Part shown: positions 3-39,296 of the stretch, piece after piece
Layout of the letters: each line of letters starts with the position of its first letter
How positions within the stretch are numbered: position 1 is the stretch's first letter
Assembly (NCBI GenBank): GCA_918026815.1
Contig: CAKJVC010000030.1
Span: forward strand, 62,001-126,000
From: Chalara sp. BL73
Lineage: Eukaryota > Ascomycota > Leotiomycetes > Helotiales
Reading direction: 5' to 3'
DNA: 64,000 nucleotides
Notes under the pieces: model-generated
What the model saw: only the letters and a program-made list of their open reading frames with translations
What the model was told of the DNA's origin: nothing
The model's database searches: none
Position numbers and translations under genes: made by a program

Positions 3-3000
3 GATTCTACAGCGTACTTTACGGACCGTCGGTACTACGGCAAAAGGCACAACTACAACTCAGGAAATCGCCAGTACAGTTCACGACACAAAGGCCGTTG
101 CTTCGTGTGCAAAAGAGAGAATTGCCGCTCGTGGAAACACAGCTCCGAAGAACAGGAGGAAGCAAAAGCTCGATTCAAAGCCCGCAACTCAAGCAGGTTC
201 GACACTAGAGCACCCGACTTCAACAAACGCTTCAACGACAGCCTACGCCAATACATCATGACATTTGAAGGCAATGAGGATAGCGAAAGCGATTCCGAGG
301 GTATCGACGAAGCTTTCAGTGCTTTAACAATCAAAGCCGACCTTGATTTCGACCTTCTTCCTGACCCAAACCCTGAACCTGGCTCTACCGATCAAACAGG
401 GCACTTTGCAACAAGCTACCTTGCAAGCAGCGACGCAACTTCGCTGATTACGGAGCTGAGTGATCGAGCTGTAGGCCATCTGATTGCAGCTACGGGCCGT
501 ATTCATGACAACAACCCCGTAAGTGACCCTGAAAACGACCCGTACAACGCTGATATCTACGCTGCTACTTCTGCCAACCTACCACGCTACAACGCTAGCC
601 AATTCTACGGTATCATGATCGACACCGGCGCTTCTAAGCACTCGACAGCCGGCCATGGCCAGCTTCAGGCTCTACAGCGCCAAAGCAGCTCTAATATCGA
701 CATCGACAACACGACAAAAGGGATGGTTAAAGTACAGTTTGGTATTGGATCTACAACGTCAATTGGCTCTATTCTCCTCGATACTCCACTAGGCCAAGTA
801 CAATTTCACATAGTCGAAGCAGATACTCCATTCCTTCTTAGCCTTGCGGATATGGATTCTTTACAGGTTTACTTGAACAACCTGAAAAACGTTCTAGTTA
901 CTCCGAACGGCAACGTGCCAGTTGTACGTCGTTTTGGCCACTCATTTTTGCTTTGGAACACTTCATTACAGTCTTTTCTGAAAAACTCTTTCGACAATAA
1001 CCCTTGCTACTTCACCAATTCAGAGCTACGCCGGCTTCATCACCGATTCGGCCATCCTTCGGTAGGTAGGCTCGAGGCGGTACTGACCCGTGCTGGCCAT
1101 GAAGTCAGCAAAAGTGCTTTAGAGCATTTGACTCGATATTGCTTTTACTGCCAAAAACACGGCAAATCTCCTGGCAGATTCAGGTTTACAATCGAAGATA
1201 GCAATATCGAATTCAATTATTGTATTATTGTCGATATCATGTATATCGACAAAAGCCCATTGCTTCATATCGTCGACCAGGCTACTCGATACCAGGCAGG
1301 AAGATGGCTTCAAAATATCAGCGCAAAGCATACATGGGACGTGCTACGCATGTGCTGGATTGACACTTATTTAGGCCCTCCTGACCTGATTGCTACCGAC
1401 GCTGGCAAGAACTTCGTTAGCAAAGAATTCAAGCAACACGCCGGCTCTATAGGCATCAAAATCAAAACTGCACCTGTAGAAGCTCACAACTCAATTGGAC
1501 TAGTCGAACGATACCACGGCCCTTTGCGTCGTGCTTTTCAAATTATTACGGCCGAGATTCAGGATATCGACAAAGATATGGCTCTGCAAATGGCCTTCAA
1601 AGCTGTAAACGACTCTGCAGGCCCTGACGGGCTTGTGCCTACGCTATTGGTCTACGGAGCCTATCCACGAATCACTGAGCTCGACGCTCCTCCAGCTACC
1701 GTTCAGCAACGAGCTACAGCCCTCAAGAAAGCTATGGAAGAAATCAAGAAGCTTAGAGCTGCACGCCAAGTCAACAACGCTCTCAACATGCGGAATGGCC
1801 CTAGGATCGACGCTATCCACGACCTCCCTTTGAACTCGCCAGTACTAGTATGGAGGGAAGGCAACACAGGGGGACGTGGCCACTGGAATGGCCCATACAA
1901 GCTGATATCAATTGAAGGAGAATCATGTGTAATCGACTTACCTCACGGCTTAACTACCTTTCGATCAACAACCGTAAAGCCTTACTATACGGAAAGAAGC
2001 CAGAAGGATAACGAGCCTGCACAACTCTCACGGCCTGTAAGCTCTGCTACAAGCCCCGAACAGCCGCTACAGCTCGAGGATTCAATTACTGTTTCCGTGC
2101 CACCGCTACAACCAGCCAAGCGCGGCCGAGGAAGACCCCGCAAGAACTCTTTCCCTGATATCACGGCTTTTATACAAGACAATGACCTTTTTGCAGCCTC
2201 TCGCCAACTGGAAATTACAGGCTTGCTAGAGAAAGGAGTGTTTGAAATAGTAGACCCTGCTACAGTTCCCCGAGGCGTACGAATCTTCAATTCAAGGTTC
2301 GTCGACGAAATCAAGAACAAAGGAACTAATCAAGCTTTCGAGAAATCACGCTTGGTCGTTCAGGCTTACAACGACTTAGAGAAAGGGCTCGTACTGACTC
2401 AATCACCTACAATTCAACGGGTCAGCCAACGCTTGATACTTTGCCTTGCGGCCTGTTTACAGCCCGTAAAGACCCTATACCTCCGAGATATCTCTCAAGC
2501 CTACGTTCAATCAGCCACTAAGCTCAACCGTGACTTTTATATTACGCCTCCACCAGAACTAGCCAGCAAACTAGGCAAAAGCTCAATTCTCAAAGTAGTC
2601 AAACCACTGTACGGCGTTCCGGAAGCCGGCAACCATTGGTTCAAAACCTATCACACGCATCACCTGAAAGAACTCGGAATGAGCCAATCAACTTACGACT
2701 CATGTCTTTTGCTCAGCAACCAACCTTTCGGGCTCGTCGGCTTACAAACTGACGACACGCTGTTCCTCGGAGACCCCGATTTTGCAGATCTAGAGCAAAG
2801 CAAACTGGAACAAGCTCGATTACTGGCCAAGAATAGGGAAGCTCTTACACCCGATCACCCAATCAAGTTCAATGGAGGTCTTGTAGAGCTCGACACAGCC
2901 GGAACTATTACGCTTTCTCAGGAACGCCAATGCAAAAACCTCAAGCTTGTCGACACCAAAGATCAATATATTGCTCAACGCGCAAGAGGAGCTTACATTG

Positions 3001-3668
3001 CTTCCGTATCACAACCTGAAGCTTCCTTTGATTTATCTTTTGCAGCCCAGGCAACTAACCCTGACGAAAAAGCTATCAAAGCTCTGAACAAGCGGCTTCA
3101 GTGGCAAATCGACAACTCTACTCGCGGCCTTCGATTCGTCAAGCTAGATATCAAGACCTTGAACCTACTAGTATTTACTGACTCTTCTTTCGCCAACAAT
3201 AAGGATCTTTCATCTCAAATTGGGTACATATTAGTGCTAGCTGACAGTCAGAACCGAGCAAATATCATTCACTGGTCGTCAGTCAAGTGCAAAAGAGTAA
3301 CAAGGAGCGTATTAGCTTCCGAGCTCTATGCTATGGCCCATGGATTTGATATCGGCGCTTCGATCAAAGCTACGATCGACAAGATCCTCAATATCACCCT
3401 TCCTCTAGTTCTTTGCACAGATTCAAGGTCATTGTACGACTGCCTCGTCAAGCTGGGAACTACACAAGAGAAGCGGCTCATGATCGACGTTCTATGCCTC
3501 CGCCAATCATATGAACGAAGAGAGATCGCGGAAGTCAAGTGGATAAGTGGTGATAGCAATCCCGCTGACTCCTTCACCAAAAGCAAAGCTTCTACGGCCC
3601 TAAAACAGCTCATTGACACCAATACAATCGATATCCGAGCCGTAGAATGGGTGGAGAGAACCGAATAG
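3..3668 (+). CDS. Ty1/copia retrotransposon polyprotein, 5' part outside window
   Basis: The open frame runs from the window edge to a stop at 3668, about 1220 residues without interruption. Domain order is that of copia (integrase before reverse transcriptase). A gag zinc-knuckle-like CFVCKRENC...H lies near 96-140, and the aspartic protease motif MIDTGASKHS near 615-650. A GAG-pre-integrase HHRFGHPS and CxxC follow, then the integrase core (DIMYID, TDAGKNF, VERYHGPL) near 1230-1530. Reverse transcriptase spans about 2270-2790, and RNase H (FTDSSFANN, ASELYAM, CTDSRSL) about 3150-3590. The RT active site reads LQTDDT rather than the usual YVDD; both aspartates are kept. It makes the replication enzymes of an LTR retrotransposon. 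Frame integrity over 3.6 kb suggests a recent copy. The 5' LTR and gag start are not in the window, so LTR identity cannot be used for dating. Confidence 0.95.
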   Translation, partial: DSTAYFTDRRYYGKRHNYNSGNRQYSSRHKGRCFVCKRENCRSWKHSSEEQEEAKARFKARNSSRFDTRAPDFNKRFNDSLRQYIMTFEGNEDSESDSEGIDEAFSALTIKADLDFDLLPDPNPEPGSTDQTGHFATSYLASSDATSLITELSDRAVGHLIAATGRIHDNNPVSDPENDPYNADIYAATSANLPRYNASQFYGIMIDTGASKHSTAGHGQLQALQRQSSSNIDIDNTTKGMVKVQFGIGSTTSIGSILLDTPLGQVQFHIVEADTPFLLSLADMDSLQVYLNNLKNVLVTPNGNVPVVRRFGHSFLLWNTSLQSFLKNSFDNNPCYFTNSELRRLHHRFGHPSVGRLEAVLTRAGHEVSKSALEHLTRYCFYCQKHGKSPGRFRFTIEDSNIEFNYCIIVDIMYIDKSPLLHIVDQATRYQAGRWLQNISAKHTWDVLRMCWIDTYLGPPDLIATDAGKNFVSKEFKQHAGSIGIKIKTAPVEAHNSIGLVERYHGPLRRAFQIITAEIQDIDKDMALQMAFKAVNDSAGPDGLVPTLLVYGAYPRITELDAPPATVQQRATALKKAMEEIKKLRAARQVNNALNMRNGPRIDAIHDLPLNSPVLVWREGNTGGRGHWNGPYKLISIEGESCVIDLPHGLTTFRSTTVKPYYTERSQKDNEPAQLSRPVSSATSPEQPLQLEDSITVSVPPLQPAKRGRGRPRKNSFPDITAFIQDNDLFAASRQLEITGLLEKGVFEIVDPATVPRGVRIFNSRFVDEIKNKGTNQAFEKSRLVVQAYNDLEKGLVLTQSPTIQRVSQRLILCLAACLQPVKTLYLRDISQAYVQSATKLNRDFYITPPPELASKLGKSSILKVVKPLYGVPEAGNHWFKTYHTHHLKELGMSQSTYDSCLLLSNQPFGLVGLQTDDTLFLGDPDFADLEQSKLEQARLLAKNREALTPDHPIKFNGGLVELDTAGTITLSQERQCKNLKLVDTKDQYIAQRARGAYIASVSQPEASFDLSFAAQATNPDEKAIKALNKRLQWQIDNSTRGLRFVKLDIKTLNLLVFTDSSFANNKDLSSQIGYILVLADSQNRANIIHWSSVKCKRVTRSVLASELYAMAHGFDIGASIKATIDKILNITLPLVLCTDSRSLYDCLVKLGTTQEKRLMIDVLCLRQSYERREIAEVKWISGDSNPADSFTKSKASTALKQLIDTNTIDIRAVEWVERTE

Positions 3669-18193: not shown

Positions 18194-20812
18194 GGTTAAT
18201 ATCTCAAATACCATCAAAAAGTGCCGATATTTCTGAAATACCATCTTTTTTTTTGACCTCTATCTGGCCATACCACCTTTTTAAAACAATGGTATTTCAG
18301 ATAGAGGCCAAAAAAATGATGGTATTTCAGATAGACACCAAAAAATGATCATTTCATGCCAAGACTAACCAACGCACCTGACCCACAAAGCTTTAAATTC
18401 AAATAATCCCACGTATTTTTAATCTTTTTGTATATTTAATTCTTCAGCCGTTAGTTCTTTGTTGTTTCGATCAATATGACTCTCCAAATAGGCACTACTT
18501 TTCCTAATATATCTTCAGCAAAAGACGCTATTAAATTCTACGTTTCAAACGCTTCTGAATCATGGAAAACAGCCTATTCAGATAAAACGCGCTTCGATAT
18601 TGTATGCCGTACGCTTCGATCTTGCAAGTTCAGAATTAGAGCTAGTGATTCTAAAAAGAAAGGAGTTCATATAACTCACTTAAAGCCTCATGCTTGCTCT
18701 CCTGCAAGTCATTTCGGAGCATCGAATATGAATAGTTTGGAGTATATAATACCTCACCATCGTGCTGCGGTTGTTGATAATCCCAAAATCACTCCAAAGC
18801 AAATCCAATCAATTGAGCGCCTTCAGTACTATAACAAGATTCCTTATCTTCAGGCTTACCGCGCAAAACAAGCTATTCTCGAGGAAGTGTATGGTGACGA
18901 AACTCAATCGTTTGCTTTGCTTCCGGCGTATATCGAAAAGTTCAAAGCTGTAGATTCAAATAATTACGCTGTTTTGGAAACCCAAGCAAATGGTGTATTT
19001 CAAGCTGCGTTTTTTGCTCCAGCTCCTTGTCGATCGGCTACAAAGCGCCTTCGCCAGTTTTATGCTATCGACGGTACTCATACCAAGTCTCGGTATCGTA
19101 TGATATTATTGATTTGTTGTGGAATCGATGCAAACGATAAGGTAACGCCTTTAGCCTGGGCATTAGTACCTATTGAAGAATATCACTGGTGGAGCTGGTT
19201 TTTGCGTCACTTGAAGCTTGCTTTCCCTATCACTTTGTTGGCGCAGCATACTTTTATTTCTGATCGTGAGAAAGGAATGGCAAAAGCAGTCGAAGAGGAG
19301 TATCCTCAAGCAATTCATCTTCACTGTTGTCAGCATATTGCGGACAATTTACAGCAAAGATATGGCAATAAAGTAAGGCCTTTGTTTTGGAAAGCGTGTA
19401 GAGCTAAAACGCCGCAATTGTACGAAAATGAAATGGCGAAATTGAAAGAAGTTAGTACTAACGCTTTCGATTATCTTTGCAATATCGACAACAAACTGTG
19501 GACTAGAGCTTACTCAGAATATCCTCGATTTGGCCATGATACTTCTAATATTGTTGAATCCTTGAATTCTAGCTGGGACGATTATCGGCGTATGCCTTTT
19601 CTTCAAATGCTGGATGGTATATACCTTTCAGTGACTAAAATATGGTTCGAAAGGCGATCAACAACTAGCAAATCCGATCAACTCGCTGACGTGCCTATGG
19701 CTAAATTTGGAAGTCGTTTTCAAGCTTCTCGTCGATATCGAGTATACCCTACAAATGAGAATATTGCTCAAGTCGAGGATCCTGATACAGGTCGAAAATG
19801 GGTAGTTGTTTTAGATCAAAAGTCGTGCGACTGTCAAGACTTCTGGGAGTATCAATCGCCCTGTTCTCACGCTATTGCAGCTGCAAGAGTGCTGCAAATC
19901 GACTCAGTTCAATATTTTGAGGATTTGTATACTACAAGAGAATACAAAAAGACCTACCGCCATATATTACTGCCAGTATCGATCGAAAACCTTTCTTCTG
20001 ATAATTCAATTAAGCCACCTGTTTTACGCAAAGGAGCAGGTCGGCCTCGAACTAAACGTATACGCAAAGGCAACTGGAACAAAAAGCAAACGCGTTGCAG
20101 TAATTGCCTCGATTGGGGTCATAATCGACGTAGTTGTACAGGTCAGCCAGTTTCAAATGGACGTCGACAACGAGCTTTCGATTGGCTTCAAGAAGTCGAC
20201 GACGAGGAAGTCGACAACGAGGAAGTCGACGACGAAGACGAACAATTGAAGCTGGATGATGAAGAACAAGAAGAAGAAGCACAACGCCTTGATCAAGAAT
20301 TGGGCATACAAGTAATAGAAGAAGCAGATGTGGTTGTGATAGCGACAGCGACGATGACTGTTAGTAGCTCTTTGTATGTAGTTATGATCATGTGACCAGC
20401 CCTTGAAACCTGAAAAAGTGTACGGAGTTAATTAGTTGCAATAGAAATTGAAATAAATAAAGTCAAATACAAAGACTTACACTACTGTAACAACTCAAAG
20501 CGAACAAAAATCTCGATCCGTGGATTTTAAGAAAAGAAACTCAAAAGTGTAAACGCTGTCAATTGTTATACAGGAAACTGGCCAAGGGCCAGTGTAAACG
20601 AGCCCTGTAGTGTTAGGGGCCGAGCTCTGTAGTGTCAGGGGCCAAGCCCCAAAAAGTTCTATTTACAGCGTATGTTGGGACATATCTCATATACCATAAT
20701 TTTTTTGGAGGATATCTCAAATACCATAAAAGTGGTATGGCCAGATAGAGGTCAAAAAAAGATGGTATTTGAGAAATATCGGCACTTTTTGATGGTATTT
20801 GAGATATTAACC
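18194..20812 (+). mobile_element. Mutator-like (MULE) DNA transposon, 2619 bp, near-intact
   Basis: Long terminal inverted repeats of roughly 95 bp start GGTTAATATCTCAAATACCA at 18194, and the reverse complement ends at 20812. They match closely and include a shared ccatcaaaaagtgccgatat stretch. Internally there are further inverted ggtatttcagatagag copies at the left end. A single long transposase frame lies between. I could not identify a convincing 9-11 bp target duplication: the flanks are tgtaaaaac on the left and gttgttatt on the right. Confidence 0.85.
18476..20395 (+). CDS. MULE transposase
   Basis: 639 uninterrupted codons. The N-terminal region is a FAR1/WRKY-GCM1-like DNA-binding zone (Cys at VCRTLRSCKFRI, then KPHACS). 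The MULE catalytic core has DGTHTKSRYRMILLICCGID (first D), TFISDREKGMAKAV (second D), HCCQHIADNL (CxxH signature) and NIVESLNS (catalytic E). The SWIM zinc finger CDCQDFWEYQSPCSH lies near residue 455, followed by a CCHC knuckle (CSNCLDWGHNRRSC) near residue 545. The C-terminus is acidic. It cuts and pastes its own element. Full-length open frame plus near-identical ends suggest recent activity. Confidence 0.92.
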   Translation: MTLQIGTTFPNISSAKDAIKFYVSNASESWKTAYSDKTRFDIVCRTLRSCKFRIRASDSKKKGVHITHLKPHACSPASHFGASNMNSLEYIIPHHRAAVVDNPKITPKQIQSIERLQYYNKIPYLQAYRAKQAILEEVYGDETQSFALLPAYIEKFKAVDSNNYAVLETQANGVFQAAFFAPAPCRSATKRLRQFYAIDGTHTKSRYRMILLICCGIDANDKVTPLAWALVPIEEYHWWSWFLRHLKLAFPITLLAQHTFISDREKGMAKAVEEEYPQAIHLHCCQHIADNLQQRYGNKVRPLFWKACRAKTPQLYENEMAKLKEVSTNAFDYLCNIDNKLWTRAYSEYPRFGHDTSNIVESLNSSWDDYRRMPFLQMLDGIYLSVTKIWFERRSTTSKSDQLADVPMAKFGSRFQASRRYRVYPTNENIAQVEDPDTGRKWVVVLDQKSCDCQDFWEYQSPCSHAIAAARVLQIDSVQYFEDLYTTREYKKTYRHILLPVSIENLSSDNSIKPPVLRKGAGRPRTKRIRKGNWNKKQTRCSNCLDWGHNRRSCTGQPVSNGRRQRAFDWLQEVDDEEVDNEEVDDEDEQLKLDDEEQEEEAQRLDQELGIQVIEEADVVVIATATMTVSSSLYVVMIM

Positions 20813-30726: not shown

Positions 30727-32630
30727 ATGATTTCATTCCCATCCCAAGCGAGGAAAAGCACTAAATATGGGCCATTTCCTATGTTACCAAATCGGCCAGT
30801 GTCACCCATACCACTCTCAACCCATAGGTCCACGGAATTGGATGCCTCCGTACATTCGATACAACCTCAAGGGGACTCAACAGTGAACCTTCTTCACTAC
30901 CCAAGAGCAACATACGTTCATCGGAGCCGTTCGCCCGAGTCCCTAACGTCGAGTCTTGATGGGGACACGATTTGTTCGACACCTAATGAGAAGTCATTTG
31001 GAAATAATGGATACCTGTCGGATGAGAAATCCAACTTCGCGCAGAGTGTAAACTCCTTCCAGACTTACTATGACCATTCCACTTACACGATTGAAACCCT
31101 CAACAAGAATGATAATGTCGATTTACTCTTCCCTTGGAAAAGGCGGCTCTACCGTCTTTCGCCTCTGTTCACTCTGCTCGCTGTTTCAGCATACTTTTTA
31201 TACTATGCATATCGAATTCACTGCACGGTCGATGCTCAAAAGGCATTCGGTAAGACATATATAATGGCATGGTTATTCATTGCAGCCGAGGGTTGTGTTG
31301 CTTGTGAGTCTTAAAACCCTCCCAACAAGAAAAATCTAAAAACCATAGGCCCAGCATTACTTCACCAGTTGTATCAAATGCTCTCAATCCGCGGCCGCAC
31401 TCGCCCTAAGCTTCGCATTCGTGGTGATGAAGTTCCAACGGTTGATGTGTTCGTCACCTGCTGCGGAGAAGATATTGATGTCGTGCTAGACACTACTCGC
31501 GCTGCCTGCGCAATCGATTATCCGCAAAACCGATTTCGTGTCGTCGTTCTAGACGATGGAAAGGATGCCGCGCTTGAGAAGGCAATCAAAGATCTGAGAC
31601 AGGAATATCTTAATGTTTACTACCATGCTAGAATCAAGATCAAGGGTGTTCCTCATCACTTCAAGGCGGGTAATTTGACTGGGGGAACTGGATATGTTAC
31701 GGGACTTGAGGGCGGAGAGGCCGAGTATATCGCTGCTTTGGACGCTGATATGATTCCCGATCGTGAATGGCTCCGCGCTATCATTGCCCACATGGTCAAA
31801 GATCCGAAGATGGCTCTAGTTTGCCCTCCACAGGTTAGCTTCTTCCCCACTTATATCTGATCCGATGTACTGACTACTTTGAAAGCTGTTCTACAATATT
31901 CCTGAGAATGATCCCCTCGTTCAATCGCTCGATGCCTTTGTTCATGTGATGGAACCAACAAAGGATGCCAACGGTGTTGCATGGTGCACAGGATCAGGAT
32001 ACGCTATTCGCCGTGCTGCACTTATATCAATTGGAGGATGGCCTGTTGGATCTCTCGCTGAGGACACGTTCACCTCTTCCCTTCTTCTTGGCTTTGGATG
32101 GAAAACCGCATTCTGTCATGAGGCTCTTCAATACGGCACAGTTCCCGGCTTTCACCGGACATCTCAAGCAACGTACTCGCTGGACCCTCGGCACGCTCCA
32201 AACAGCCGTCAAACTCAAATTTTGTATCTATGGCGACCTAGTAAAAGGAATGGGATTCTTCGCCCGCCTCTCGGCATTCGTTTTTGCCATCGACGCATTC
32301 TTCAAAATATTTCTCCTTGTTGCTCTTCTCACCATCCCGATTGTGCCCATCTCGGGTGGTCAACTCGTTGCTTACTCCGGGTACGCTCAACTTCGCTGGC
32401 AAATCCGGCTCTGCTTCGCCTCCCTTGTGCTCACGCGCGTAAATGAATGGATCACCTATCTCCCCTCCGGTTACCGCCTTGCACAACGAGACACAGGCGC
32501 ACAATTGTGGATGGCTCCCTACCATGCCATGACTATTGTCCATTCTTTCATACTGCCTTCCTGGCTCGGCGGAAGAGCAATGGCCTTCTCCTCTTCTGGC
32601 TCGGTCAAATCGGAGCTCAACGAGCGTGAG

Positions 32631-32638
32631 ACCAAGAC
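32631..32638. repeat. 8-bp target site duplication, left copy
   Basis: ACCAAGAC, identical to 38871-38878, directly outside the hAT inverted repeat. Confidence 0.95.
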
Positions 32639-32984
32639 TAGACTGCGAACTGGGGTCCCACGGGGCGGGTTTTCACCTACTTGACCCCACCCGTCGGGGT
32701 CCCACCCCATGGGTTGGGGTCTATCAAAAGCACCCACCCCACCCCATGGGGTCTTGATAGGGTGCCAAGCACCTATTACATTTACACGTGACATTACAAT
32801 AGTTGCTGTACAGTTAGAGAAGTTATACTAATAAGCCTACTAATCAAAAAGCTACGCGACATAAACGTATTAAAATTTTGGTTTGTGAATTTTATTATGT
32901 GCTTAGCGCCCTATCGCTAGCGTGTATACCTTTAATAACTTTATTGCTTAACTTATTTCCTTTGTATGAACTGCGTTTGATTCT

Positions 32985-33534
32985 TTAACACCGGCCTGGG
33001 TACTTGTAGCCCGTTATTCCTTCTTTCATTCTTTGAACTAAATGCATATTCTTTACTTGAATAGTAACTTTTTTAGCGTGGATTGCAGCAAGATTTGTGA
33101 CTTTAAAGTAATATTAGTATAAATATTAGTATAATGTATTTATATGAAATAACTTACGCTCGAACTCAGCTACTAAAGCAGATTCTGCGGCTTTTTGGAG
33201 ACATTGTAAAGCACTAAGTTGAATGCGAAATGCGTGTCGAGACGTAATATTATACATTATTTCTTTAACTAGTCGAGTAAATGGAGCTTTTGGGATTAAA
33301 AGCTCAGTGCTTTTTTGGTATCGTTTGATTTCTTTAAGTGCTTTGGCTACGTTTAAATGTTAGTTTTATACTAATTATTATATTAATCAACTTACTGCTA
33401 GGTTTCAATCGATATTTCTTTTTTAGTACAGCTTTTGCAGAGGTTTTAGCAGAAGTTTTGGCAGAGGTTTTGGCAGAGGTTTTGGCAGAGGGTTTGCGAG
33501 CAGATTTGGTAGCTATTTTCTTGGTACGTGCTAT
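32985..33534 (-). CDS. histone H3 homologue (CenH3-like loop) encoded inside the hAT element
   Basis: Complement(32985..33100, 33158..33346, 33396..33534): three exons, introns of 57 and 49 bp, all phases consistent, about 146 residues after the start. The tail begins ARTKKIATKSARKPS, echoing H3 (K4, K9, S10 positions), and continues with four to five SAKT repeats. The histone fold follows: YRLKPSTKALKEIKRYQ, KSTELLIPKAPFTRLVKEI (alpha-N/alpha-1), then LQCLQKAAESALVAEFE (alpha-2), and TNLAAIHAKKVTIQVKNMHL with VQRMKEGITG (alpha-3). KEI to AAE spans 28 residues, as in CENP-A, against 26 in canonical H3. The C-terminus is extended (YKYPGRC). The codon where ATG is expected, in context ACAATxGCACGT, reads ATA at 33532-33534; no clear upstream ATG exon was found. 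There are no internal stops. Adjacent 5' AT-rich sequence (33541-33760) may hold a leader intron. Confidence 0.88.
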
Positions 33535-34057
33535 TGTAACTTATTAAGATTAGAATAAATATTAGTATAATACAGAATGATATGTACTTGTGCAAAGTCG
33601 CAAATTTTTTTTAGAAAAAGTGAAGGTGAATGTAAATATTGACACGTGAAATTGAAATTATAGCTTTGTGATTTCGACGAGAAGACTATAAAGAATTAGT
33701 ATAATAATTAATATAAAAATAGAATATAAAAAAGATAAATATAATACATACTTGTGTATAGTGTAGTTGTTAGTAAATTTAATTGAAGGTTAAAAGAAGT
33801 CAGGTTTGAAAAAAGTAGTTTAGTGCTTTAAAATCGAGGCATAAAAACGCGACTGTTTTATTTTTCAGGATAACGCGTACTTTTTTCTTATTCATTCTTT
33901 TTGCACCAACTTATTAAATCTGAACAAAGTCAAACATTTATTGCAGTACGTGTTTTTGGTGTATTATATTAATTTTTATACTAATTTTTGAAGCTTTAGT
34001 TCTTGCGAGTTGAAATTTGCAAAATACGCCTACTTTTCGGTTGCGTTACTTTCCAAT

Positions 34058-35362
34058 ATGGCTTCACTTTTCGAAAAGCAGCTTTTTCAGGTAATTTTTA
34101 TTGAAATATTATATTAATTTGTATACTAATCGGTTTCAAGAATATTATTGTTATTTCTGATAATTCAGATCATGAATTTGATATGGATTTTAATTCTTCG
34201 CAGCAAATCGGTTTTTCCAATAAACGCAAGCGCAAATCTCCGGGCAGTTTTTCTACTAATGTGCATACTGTTAAAGCTAGAAGAAGACTTGAAGCTATAA
34301 AAAGCAACAGTATTCAAAATCAGATCGAAAAAGCGAAAGCCGCAGATCAAGCAGCAATTACATACCGAAAAAAAGTCTTCAAAAAGTCTGCTGAATTTGC
34401 ACTCGCATTTTTTGCCGAGCAGAAGCGAATGATTGAGCAGTTTGCTTTGCAAGTTAGAACAAAGCGGTTCGTTTAATTTTGATTATACTAATTTTTATAC
34501 TAACTTGTATAGTGAACGAAATGGCAAAGATTGGAAATCTGTAGCAAAAGCTTTGGGTTATAGAGAAATTGGTGGCCTATATGCAATTGATAATGATGGA
34601 AATCCAGCATGGGAAGATATTGAGTATGAATCGGAAGACGAATACGAGTTTGAGCATATGTAGAGATTGAATGAAAAGCAAAACGGTGATAAAGCAGTTG
34701 TCGGCAAATCTGCTAAAGAGTTGAAAAATGACGGGATTGCTAAGCATAAACGATCTATTTTAGTAAGTTTCAGATTAATATAATGATTCGTATAACGCTA
34801 ATACAATTTCAGGATGCTAAAAAGCTTGAATTTAAGTTTTGGCAAAGAAAATGGCGCCGAAGCCGTCGATCTTTGTTCCGCAAAATCCGAAAGCTTGCTG
34901 CTGGTGGACAGGAATACTTGGAAAGAACAAGCTGTTTTTATATTTACAAGAAGTACAAAATTCTACTAATTTTTATACTAATCTGCTAACTGATATAGCA
35001 AATTCTATGCGTATAAAACTTTTGAAAGATACTTTATTTAAGGAGAAAAGGCAATTTGGAAAAATCTTGCAGCATGAGTATACGGAAATGAAGAGTGGAT
35101 CGATCTGCCGGGCCCTGCAAATTGGTGGCCAGCCGACGATAAGTTAAATGACACAGGATTCGGCTTTTCCGATTCGTTGACAGGCTATAAAAAAGCGTTT
35201 GATATGGTATATGCTACGGAAATTCCGGAAGATGGATCATACGAACGTATTTTCCCCGCTTATAATGATTTGTTTTTGATGACAGACAATTTTTTAAGTC
35301 AAACAATCGTTAAAGCATTTTTTGGTTTACAAAGCAGCTTTCAAAGGCCGCGTAAGCTGTAA
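34058..35362 (+). pseudogene. unrecognised five-exon gene of the hAT element (ORF1), with three in-frame stops
   Basis: Exons 34058..34090, 34141..34466, 34513..34762, 34813..34952 and 34999..35362. Every junction keeps phase, giving 371 codons from ATG (MASLFEKQLFQ) to a stop after QRPRKL. Three internal stops fall at EFEHM*, ERYFI* and KNLAA*VYGNEEW. Each is one C-to-T or G-to-A step from Gln or Trp. Features seen are a basic patch (SNKRKRKSPG), a long helical Lys/Glu/Ala segment, an acidic stretch (EDIEYESEDEYEFEH), and a conserved-looking EWIDLPGPANWWPADD. No family is recognised. It is transcribed in the same direction as the transposase and divergently from the histone gene. It may be a DNA-binding accessory protein (inference only). 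Confidence 0.7.
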
Positions 35363-35817
35363 ATGTATATGTAGTTTTTAAGTATATACAACAAATAAAG
35401 CAAAGAACTTTAAGCAGATATATTCAATTTTATACTAATCTTTATACTAATCATTATATTTTACATTAATTTTTGGAAGTTTAATTATAGCTTTTAATAT
35501 GTACAATTTTTTTGAAGTAGTAATTTAATTTGTGTTTAAATACTTGTTTTTTCTTTCCGATTTGATGCTTTTTTTTTTACTTGCACACTTTTGTTGCTAT
35601 AGAGTCAAGTAATTCGCAAAACTTTTTTGATTCTTTTAGCTCATTTGAGTCAAATATTTTTGACAATTTACTATTTTCGCAAATTAGTTCAAAAAACCTA
35701 TATTTTCGATGGGAACTCGAATATCACGATAAGTTTGTTGAATAGTGGTTAAGTACACAATAGGCAGTTCAAGCAGTTGCAAACTAATCAATTGATTTAG
35801 TAAAGCAATTAAATTGG

Positions 35818-38413
35818 AAATCTTAAAATCGAAAATCTATTGCTTGGAAACAATTCGATTAAAGAATACACCGGATCACCGGAGAGTTTAAAGTCATATG
35901 TCAAAACTGCAACAAAGTTCTCGCACATCTAAATACGCGGAATACCGGCACAAAAGCTTTGTCTGGTTATATAGCGTTTCGGCAATGCTTTGTTTATTCT
36001 AGCCAAAGTAATACAAAGCAGAAAAAAGTGGAAAACATATTTCACGCTATTTCTGTAAGTAGATTAGTATAAATATTAGTATAATGTCTAATATTAATAG
36101 CAACTAATCTTTACGAAGCAAGCATTTCACGACTAGGTTTTTGCAACTATTGTTTCACTTCGTATTTCTTTCCGCGCAATCGAAAATCCTGAATGGAGAA
36201 AGCTAGCTGTTATGCAAAAATCCAAATTTCGAACTTCTTTTTGCAATAACTATAAAGAATCGACTGATGGAACAATCAGTCAAACTTGAACAGAACATGC
36301 TTTTAAATGTTGTTCCTGGAAGCAAAATTGCAATTTTTCTCGATTGCTGGTCTAGTACAACAAAACTATCATTTATAGGTATAATAGCTCACTATATTGA
36401 TAAGTTATGGGCTCTTTGTCAAGAATTAATAGGATTTAAAAGTTTAGTAAACGTTTATTCCGGAAATGCGTTTGCTTAAGTTGTCAATAACGTTTTTCAA
36501 CAGCACAATCTTTTTGATCGTGTTGTTTCAATTACAACTGATAATGCGAGTTCGAATACTACAATAGTTTTCGAAATCAACGAGTATTTACAAGAAGCTT
36601 TGAAAGCTAATAGTATTCTGAAAAGAAAAGTCTAACACGTGCCGTGTTTATCGCATGTGATTTAGTTTAGTCTTCAAGCACTTTTAGGCTTTGTTCAATT
36701 GAAGCCTACTAACGACACATTTGTTCGGAATTGAGTAACAGAAAAAGAGCTGTTTGATCTTGAAAGAATCAAAGCTAGTAACAAACGTAGTATTCTATAT
36801 ATACTAGCAAAGGTATGTAACACGTGACTTTTATACTAATTTTTATACTAATTTTATATTAGATTCGAAAGCTTGCTATTCTTGTTAATTCCAGTGCACA
36901 GCGGAAACATCGATTTCAAAGAGTTCAACAAAAACAAATCAGAGATTTATCTTTTCCGAATGATCTAGTTTTTACATTGTTAATTGATGTATGCACTCGA
37001 TAGGACTTAACAGTGCATATGATTCTTCGTGCATTGCGTCTTAAAGAGTCTATCAATCAATTTTGCAGTGTATACGATCTTGCTAAGCTTTTTTCATTTT
37101 CTGCATTAGAATGGAAAAAACTTGGCTATTTGGCCGATTTGTTACGTCTTTTCAATTTTTTTACAACAACAATCGGCAAAACAACAAGCATAACATTGCT
37201 TTATGCTTTATCAATTTACGATGAATTGTTTGAACACTTGCAAGAATCTCGTCGAGTATTAACCAAAAAGTCTGTTGCTTAACTTTGGGTAAAAGATTTA
37301 ATTAGTGCGATTAATGCTGCAGAAGCTAAGCTTGATACTTACTATAACAAAACATATAGTAGTTTTAGTAGTTTGTATAGCATCGGAGCAATTCTTGATC
37401 TAAAATCGAAGCTAAAATGCTTTGAAGAAGATTATTGCTGGCTTAATTTCAAAACAGTTAATTGGGCCAAAGAATTTAAGCGTCAATTTCGGTCGTTATA
37501 CGATACAGAATATAAAGAAAAGTTTACGAATGCTGACCGACTTTTTTAAATTCGAAAAGTTAATTACGACTTTTTAGCATTAGCATTAAGTCGCAAGCGC
37601 TTTATTCGAGACATTCAGAACTTTTATCGCAAAGATAATGACTTTTTTCCTTTTGAAATTGATGAATGGCTAGCTATGAGTATGTTTACAATTCTACTTT
37701 TTATACTAATTTTTATACTAATCTTTGTGTTGTTTTTTTTAGAGCCTAATAATCGATCACCGCTACTTGTTTGGAAATCGCTTGAAACACAGCTTCCTGG
37801 CTTATTAGCAATAGCTAGGGATTTACTTTGTATCCCGATGGCCGGTGTTGGAGTAGAACGTACTTTTAGTTTTGCACGTGATATATGCGGATATCGCTGT
37901 AGCCAGCTTCAACCGACAACTATTCGGTCGCTTTTTTTGGTTTATTATTCGCTCGTTGAACATTCACGAACACGTGAGCTTTAAAACCTACTATTTTCAA
38001 CTATTAATATCTAGGATATAACACTTGAAGATATAGAAACGGAAATTAAAACGCGAGAAAATGACTTTGAAGTCTAACTTGATCAAATTGATTTTTGGGA
38101 AAATTATTACTATATTAGTGATGAAGAACCAGAAGGAAACGAAGAAGTTCGAACTCGTCGTGCTCAAAAACACTGGGATTACAAGATTTCTAAATCTTTA
38201 CGTCAATCAATTTATCAAAATCAGCCACTTTCGACTACTCAGTTTTAAAATACACTTAGGAATCGCTGCGAACCGTTAATTGAAACAACGAACTGGGAAC
38301 TATCTAGTAATAGTAGTCAAAAGCTGCCTCGACTTCCGACTTCTGATATTGGTAATATTGTGCCGGATATTCCAATAGGCATTCACAGGTCAAAAAAGCA
38401 AAAAAAAAATTAG
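35818..38413 (+). pseudogene. hAT transposase with about eleven in-frame stops
   Basis: In order, with introns near 36055-36118, 36813-36862 and 37680-37742. A BED-type zinc finger comes first (VICQNCNKVLAHLNTRNTGT). The RNase-H-like core has IAIFLDCWSSTTKLSFIGI, then FDRVVSITTDNASSN and VPCLSHVI. The C-terminal hATC dimerisation domain reads LVWKSLETQLPGLLAIARDL and CIPMAGVGVERTFSFARDIC. Stops include those at 36477, 36633, 36663, 36732, 37001, 37280, 37547 and 38246. Where the expected residue can be guessed it is Gln or Trp, so each fits a C-to-T or G-to-A transition. The frame is otherwise continuous, so decay is by point mutation, not deletion. This copy cannot make active transposase. 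Confidence 0.85.
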
Positions 38414-38870
38414 TTTTAGAATATTAGTGTTGTATTATTATAATTCACAATTTTTTCCACTCTATTACAATATGTTTAAATTTAACATTTGAAGTTTAAT
38501 TTTTATACTAATTTTTATACTAATCAACCACTTTGCATTTCAAGTACTTTTGTAAAAACAAGTATACAAAATAGCTTTGTTTAACCTGTGTGCATATAGA
38601 AAAATCAATGCCAAAACTGGAAAGAATTATTTCGATACTAGAATACTTCGTATATTTTTAAAATTCCACCAGTTCGCCCTACATTCTTGTAAAGGAGTTT
38701 GATTGTAGTTTCTATATTTAGTTAATCTTATCGGGGCCCCATTGGGGTCCCGCGGGTCGGGGTCAAAATACACAACCCACCCCACGGGGGAAGCGAGCCT
38801 CGAAGACCCGACCCACGGGGTCCCATGGGTCGGGGGCCCCGGCCCGCCCCGTGGGTTTCTGCGCAGTCTA

Positions 38871-38878
38871 ACCAAGAC
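38871..38878. repeat. 8-bp target site duplication, right copy
   Basis: ACCAAGAC, identical to 32631-32638. The host frame continues as ACC AAG AC|C CGT across the empty site. Confidence 0.95.
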
Positions 38879-39296
38879 CCGTGGCCCCTTGTTACGCCGC
38901 CTCAAAGTCATGCTCTGGGACTGCGATCTCTATATGCATCTCCTCTACGTCCTCTTCGTGGTCGGTGCAGTCACATCTTCTACCGTCATTGGAATCAACA
39001 ACTCAAACACCATCCACACACTTTTAATTTACCTCCTCACACATGCGTTCTGGCCGCCAATGTTGTGGCTGTTGCGCGTAACAGCTTGTTTCGAACCCAT
39101 TCGATATGTGATTTGGCCGCCAACGATGCCAGATAGAGAGGAATTGCTTGACAGGGACTCGATTACAAATATTGCGCGGCCGAAGGAAGAATGGAAGAAG
39201 CAACGGTATTCGAAGTTGACGTTTTGGCATGAGATGCAGTACTCAGGGGCTACTATTTTTACTACTGTTGTTTTCTTCGGGGCGTTCTTTGTTTAA

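Follow-up and report, generated by a model that had tools for sequence, protein, structure and literature searches.

Does a histone gene found inside a DNA transposon belong to the transposon, and if so, what might it do there? This question is raised by a stretch of 64,000 nucleotides from the fungus Chalara sp. BL73 (contig CAKJVC010000030.1, positions 62,001 to 126,000; hereafter the window), in which a 6232-bp hAT transposon (32639 to 38870) carries a histone H3-like gene, here named H3L. Core histones are mostly viewed as housekeeping genes. The reading put forward here, tentatively, is that of a hAT family with H3L as a regular part, whose intact copies likely make an H3L protein that is predicted to pair with histone H4 and to weaken silencing.

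The original prediction of a three-exon, minus-strand gene encoding a histone-fold protein was borne out. Exon 1 (33396 to 33534) encodes the tail, and its start codon reads ATA in the window copy. Exon 2 (33158 to 33346), supported by its splice sites and by Pfam, encodes most of the histone fold, and exon 3 (32985 to 33100) the end of the fold and the C-terminus. The H3L protein of young copies (see below) matches Pfam PF00125 at 8.7e-30. In the 27 copies that were aligned (C62, C114, C53 and C135 lie outside this set), intron 1 starts with GTAAGT in all 27 and ends with TAG in 26, while intron 2 starts with GTAAGT in 24 and ends with AAG in all 27. A chance or misread frame was ruled out by these kept splice sites together with the Pfam match, and the recurrence of the entire element, at about 30 loci, also excludes chance. 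The H3L tail keeps ARTK and has ATKS around K9, with no ARKS and no K27 motif, while the tail of host H3 has ARKS twice. Several residues that had been quoted for the protein (KEI, LVKEI, LQKAAE) arose in the window copy by C>T/G>A mutation, the corresponding residues of young copies being REI, LVREI and LQEAAE.

The element shows the hallmarks of hAT transposons, including an 8-bp target duplication (ACCAAGAC, 32631 to 32638 on the left and 38871 to 38878 on the right), short terminal inverted repeats at both ends (TAGACTGCG, 32639 to 32647, plus strand, and 38862 to 38870, minus strand; the two ends of the element are TAGACTGCG/CGCAGTCTA) and a transposase with the hAT C-terminal dimerisation domain PF05699, for which the last transposase exon of a young copy gave a match at 9.4e-10. 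Besides H3L it bears two plus-strand genes. The first, referred to as the central gene (34058 to 35360), has five exons in young copies according to a model built from copy L014. A Pfam search with its protein gave no match, and relatives at E <= 0.001 were found in Chlorociboria (44%) and Tricladium (41%), two among 3190 candidates. The second is the transposase gene (approximately 35600 to 38413), with approximate exons at 35600-36054, 36116-36812, 36864-37683 and 37744-38413. Its match to a putative BED zinc finger (PF02892, E 0.037) is weak, 14.5 bits being under the cut-off of 20.6.

H3L travels with this element. When the 58.66-Mb genome was searched at the DNA level, the H3L region gave 35 matches (30 loci and three short matches) and the transposase 33 matches (30 loci), the locus counts being lower bounds. 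H3L was present at 29 of the 30 transposase-bearing loci. The original prediction had raised the matter of family members without the histone gene; the sole one among the transposase-bearing loci, C53, has a match that begins inside the central gene and is truncated there. A further locus, C135, is a piece of the H3L end at the end of a contig. Exact 8-bp target duplications flank 24 of the 27 copies, and these 24 have the same borders as the window copy; in the aligned pieces of the other three (L017, L025 and L033) one end is missing, and the right flank of L025 is the same as that of L022. As L010 and L011 have both flanks in common, they were counted as one insertion, leaving 23 different sites. 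The gene is thus cargo of the hAT element, as had been proposed. In three contig pairs (C17/C18, C6/C7 and C127/C183) the same insertions and flanks occur twice, one contig of each pair being short; the paired contigs differ by many single-base homopolymer changes, which points to duplicated or unpolished contigs.

The copies fall into two age classes, and H3L is found in both, that is, in copies of very different mutational ages. Sixteen young copies match the majority sequence at 99.4% identity or more. The other 11, the window copy among them, are hypermutated, with 4.1 to 18.0% divergence, mainly C>T/G>A (230 of the 258 substitutions in the window copy). CpA and CpT are the favoured sites, ahead of CpC and far ahead of CpG, and the process may be called RIP-like (RIP, repeat-induced point mutation), a name based on the pattern alone. 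In addition to its lost H3L start, the window copy carries three stops within its central gene and another 14 within the three blocks of the transposase that were read; these stops are absent from all 16 young copies. The window copy is probably dead. It is nevertheless more than 99.5% identical to L010 and L011, hypermutations included, yet sits at a different target site. A copy with broken genes was thus mobilised, presumably in trans. Moreover, an element of about 720 bp, whose ends are those of the hAT family and whose 8-bp duplication is AGCATGAC, lies without H3L in C127 and C183, with identical flanks. This non-autonomous element (L038, 111-830; L039, 102-814) has a mostly unrelated interior.

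The original prediction knew of no description of core histones as DNA-transposon cargo. This part was not supported, since H3-carrying hATs have been published, and the kind is already known. According to a 2013 report, Pyrenophora tritici-repentis has tens of near-identical copies of a 5.6-kb hAT with H3L, a central open reading frame and a transposase, and its H3L has expressed sequence tags (PMC3538342). A 2019 report describes an H3-carrying hAT of about 9.5 kb with 8-bp target duplications in Pseudocercospora fijiensis and five other Mycosphaerellaceae; it bears one or two intronless H3 copies, and all copies are stated to be inactivated by RIP (PMC6710886). Both describe the gain of H3 as transduplication (PMC3538342, PMC6710886). 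These two were the only reports of H3-carrying hATs recognised among the papers listed in a literature search that left subscription journals mostly outside. The Pyrenophora element has the same gene trio, enclosed by one pair of ends, as the element described here, although it is 5.6 kb against 6.2 kb long, and the present H3L has introns and the present family an older hypermutated class. The likeness is one of architecture only; Pyrenophora sequences were not among the matches listed in our protein searches; those with H3L list 120 of about 8000 candidates scored, so that absences from them mean little. The Mycosphaerellaceae element, as described there, shares the 8-bp duplications, the H3-like gene and the RIP damage, but differs in its length of about 9.5 kb, its intronless H3 and the inactivation of all its copies, whereas the present family has young copies free of the stops of the window copy and an intron-bearing H3L. 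What the present case adds is a further fungal lineage, introns and a base composition of H3L that resemble those of the element, and retention of H3L across very different mutational ages.

Where does H3L come from? Among the matches listed, its closest relative is a protein of Bisporella sp. PMI_857 (90% identity), followed by proteins of Tricladium (62%), Pseudogymnoascus, Clarireedia, Stromatinia, Talaromyces and Paracoccidioides; a profile search with H3L was flooded by tandem-H3 proteins. In a tree of the histone fold with 21 rows, hand-chosen from the match lists, ten H3L rows split from H3 and CenH3 with support of 100/98, the branching inside the H3L clade being mostly unresolved. The clade holds relatives from Leotiomycetes and Eurotiomycetes, and several of the H3-like proteins of the seven genera named above may be host genes. 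Six divergent fungal H3-like proteins annotated as histone H3 or hypothetical (P0040, P0045, P0177, P0182, P0187 and P0189) fall inside it. Host H3 (L036) resembles H3L in its histone fold and ARTK start, which is what would be seen if the element had recently captured the host H3 gene. However, the two are only 64% identical in the fold, ARKS is present in host H3, and holding H3L and the Bisporella protein with host H3 was rejected in an approximately unbiased (AU) test (p = 2.7e-8). Host H3 also has other introns than H3L. The H3L introns, of 49 and 57 bp, resemble six other counted introns of the element (46 to 62 bp; this count omits the first intron of the transposase gene), and TACTAA occurs in six of these eight introns, the exceptions being the first intron of H3L and the third of the central gene. 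The GC content at third codon positions is 0.35 in H3L, 0.35 in the central gene and 0.59 in host H3. In introns and base composition H3L therefore resembles the remainder of the element and differs from host H3, which suggests long residence in the element. A recent capture of host H3 was thus ruled out by introns, base composition and the AU test, and its probability is practically nil; nor was a host gene captured with its host flanks seen. On these sequence comparisons, the histone-fold protein H3L falls outside host H3.

The original prediction also saw in H3L a hybrid with CenH3, the centromeric variant, and a CenH3-type histone that affects centromeres has to be considered. The stretch from K/REI to AAE is indeed 28 residues long, where canonical H3 has 26, and this length and the AAE agree with such a type; the length is nevertheless not diagnostic, since it varies from 25 to 30 across seven proteins of the H3L clade. 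Nor can the predicted structure of the 143-residue Bisporella relative (four helices; mean predicted local distance difference test score, pLDDT, 69.5) separate H3 from CENP-A, because the structural matches to both were tied at the top. Host CenH3 (L037) shares the histone fold, but its introns are other ones and its fold identity to H3L is 55%, lower than that of host H3. In AU tests with two CenH3 rows only, grouping H3L and the Bisporella protein with CenH3 alone was rejected (p = 2e-5), while placing the whole H3L clade with CenH3 was not (p = 0.18). H3L thus appears, on a narrow test, to lie outside CenH3, which leaves the hybrid idea weak and a centromeric function very unlikely.

What, then, could H3L do for the element? 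Under the proposed anti-silencing function, intact copies would express H3L, and the protein, predicted to pair with host H4, would enter nucleosomes and act in trans. H3L nucleosomes would be methylated poorly at H3K9 and H3K27, and silencing of the element would be weakened. Given the biology of these methylations, a tail like that of H3L should be a poor substrate, because neither of the two ARKS motifs of host H3 is present in it, while ARTK is kept; it is from this tail that we infer the anti-silencing role. A different effect of the same protein would be that of a decoy, in which H3L, by competing for H4 or for histone chaperones, would upset the nucleosome supply of the host, with no marking of the element's chromatin. 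Competition for chaperones is established histone biology, and a histone gene that is present in many copies and has a conserved fold would suit it, but a pure decoy has no need of the retained ARTK; we regard this as improbable. Finally, H3L may do nothing for the element, being an H3-type gene captured long ago by transduplication and since copied passively between the element ends. This possibility is as likely as the anti-silencing function.

Several observations weigh against an anti-silencing function, and most of them suit a passive passenger. H3L is dispensable in cis, since both the broken window copy and its H3L-less relative of about 720 bp have moved. Its presence did not shield copies, as 11 of 27 are heavily hypermutated. 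In the dead copies H3L decays as in a simulation without selection (nine copies): P for stops was 0.22 to 0.99, and amino-acid changes were under expectation in eight of the nine, the lowest P being 0.051. Selection preserving H3L in dead copies was accordingly rejected, with no significant preservation in any of the nine. As assembled, moreover, H3L is fully in frame in only three of the 16 young copies (L012, L013 and L014), and in the other 13 it is shifted by single bases in homopolymer runs. Most of these shifts are probably homopolymer noise in the assembly, since L010 and L011, a single insertion on two contigs, differ by six substitutions and 31 insertions or deletions, 25 of them of one base. 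Nevertheless, the run lengths of H3L and transposase in the young copies are partly linked (both long in eight, both short in five, mixed in three), and a real shifted sublineage may account for part of the shifts. Published cases also fit a passenger: transduplication is reported for both Pyrenophora and Mycosphaerellaceae, and the amplified Mycosphaerellaceae copies are all inactivated.

Against a passenger stands the H3L open frame kept in Bisporella (90%) and Tricladium (62%); if the genes there are borne by elements, loss of the frame would be expected of a free-running passenger. In Tricladium, H3L and the central protein both have relatives, with an identity of 75% for the H3L fold and 41% for the central protein. 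The broader idea that hATs in several fungal classes keep an H3 family under selection, as a histone of their own whose nucleosomes would be unable to bear the usual silencing marks and as a weapon against silencing, is unlikely. If the anti-silencing function is real, it would represent a chromatin-level counter-defence by a DNA transposon, altered nucleosomes helping it to escape silencing. A further case of H3 in a hAT, with the gene trio of Pyrenophora and signs of long residence, in any event turns the keeping of histones by transposons into a testable question.

Two minor results concern the mutations of the element. In the same simulations, amino-acid changes in the central gene exceeded the simulated number in eight of nine copies, which indicates that mutation density is uneven along the element. 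Between the old and the young lineages, 10 non-RIP differences are fixed, too few for a test, and none of them lies in H3L.

In the window, the element interrupts a host gene stretch (31378 to 32638, plus strand) with a glycosyltransferase family 2 match at 31378-31860 (PF00535, 2.4e-11), and 38879-39296 would be the remainder of this glycosyltransferase-like gene. Ahead of the insertion, between 31946 and 32684, its reading continues in two different frames, and it may thus be shifted besides being interrupted. Two further mobile elements were found in the window. A 639-aa open frame at 18476-20395, with MULE transposase, MuDR DNA-binding and SWIM matches, corresponds to a Mutator-like element, and an 1187-aa open frame at 105-3668, with integrase and reverse transcriptase (RVT_2) matches, to a Copia-like retrotransposon.
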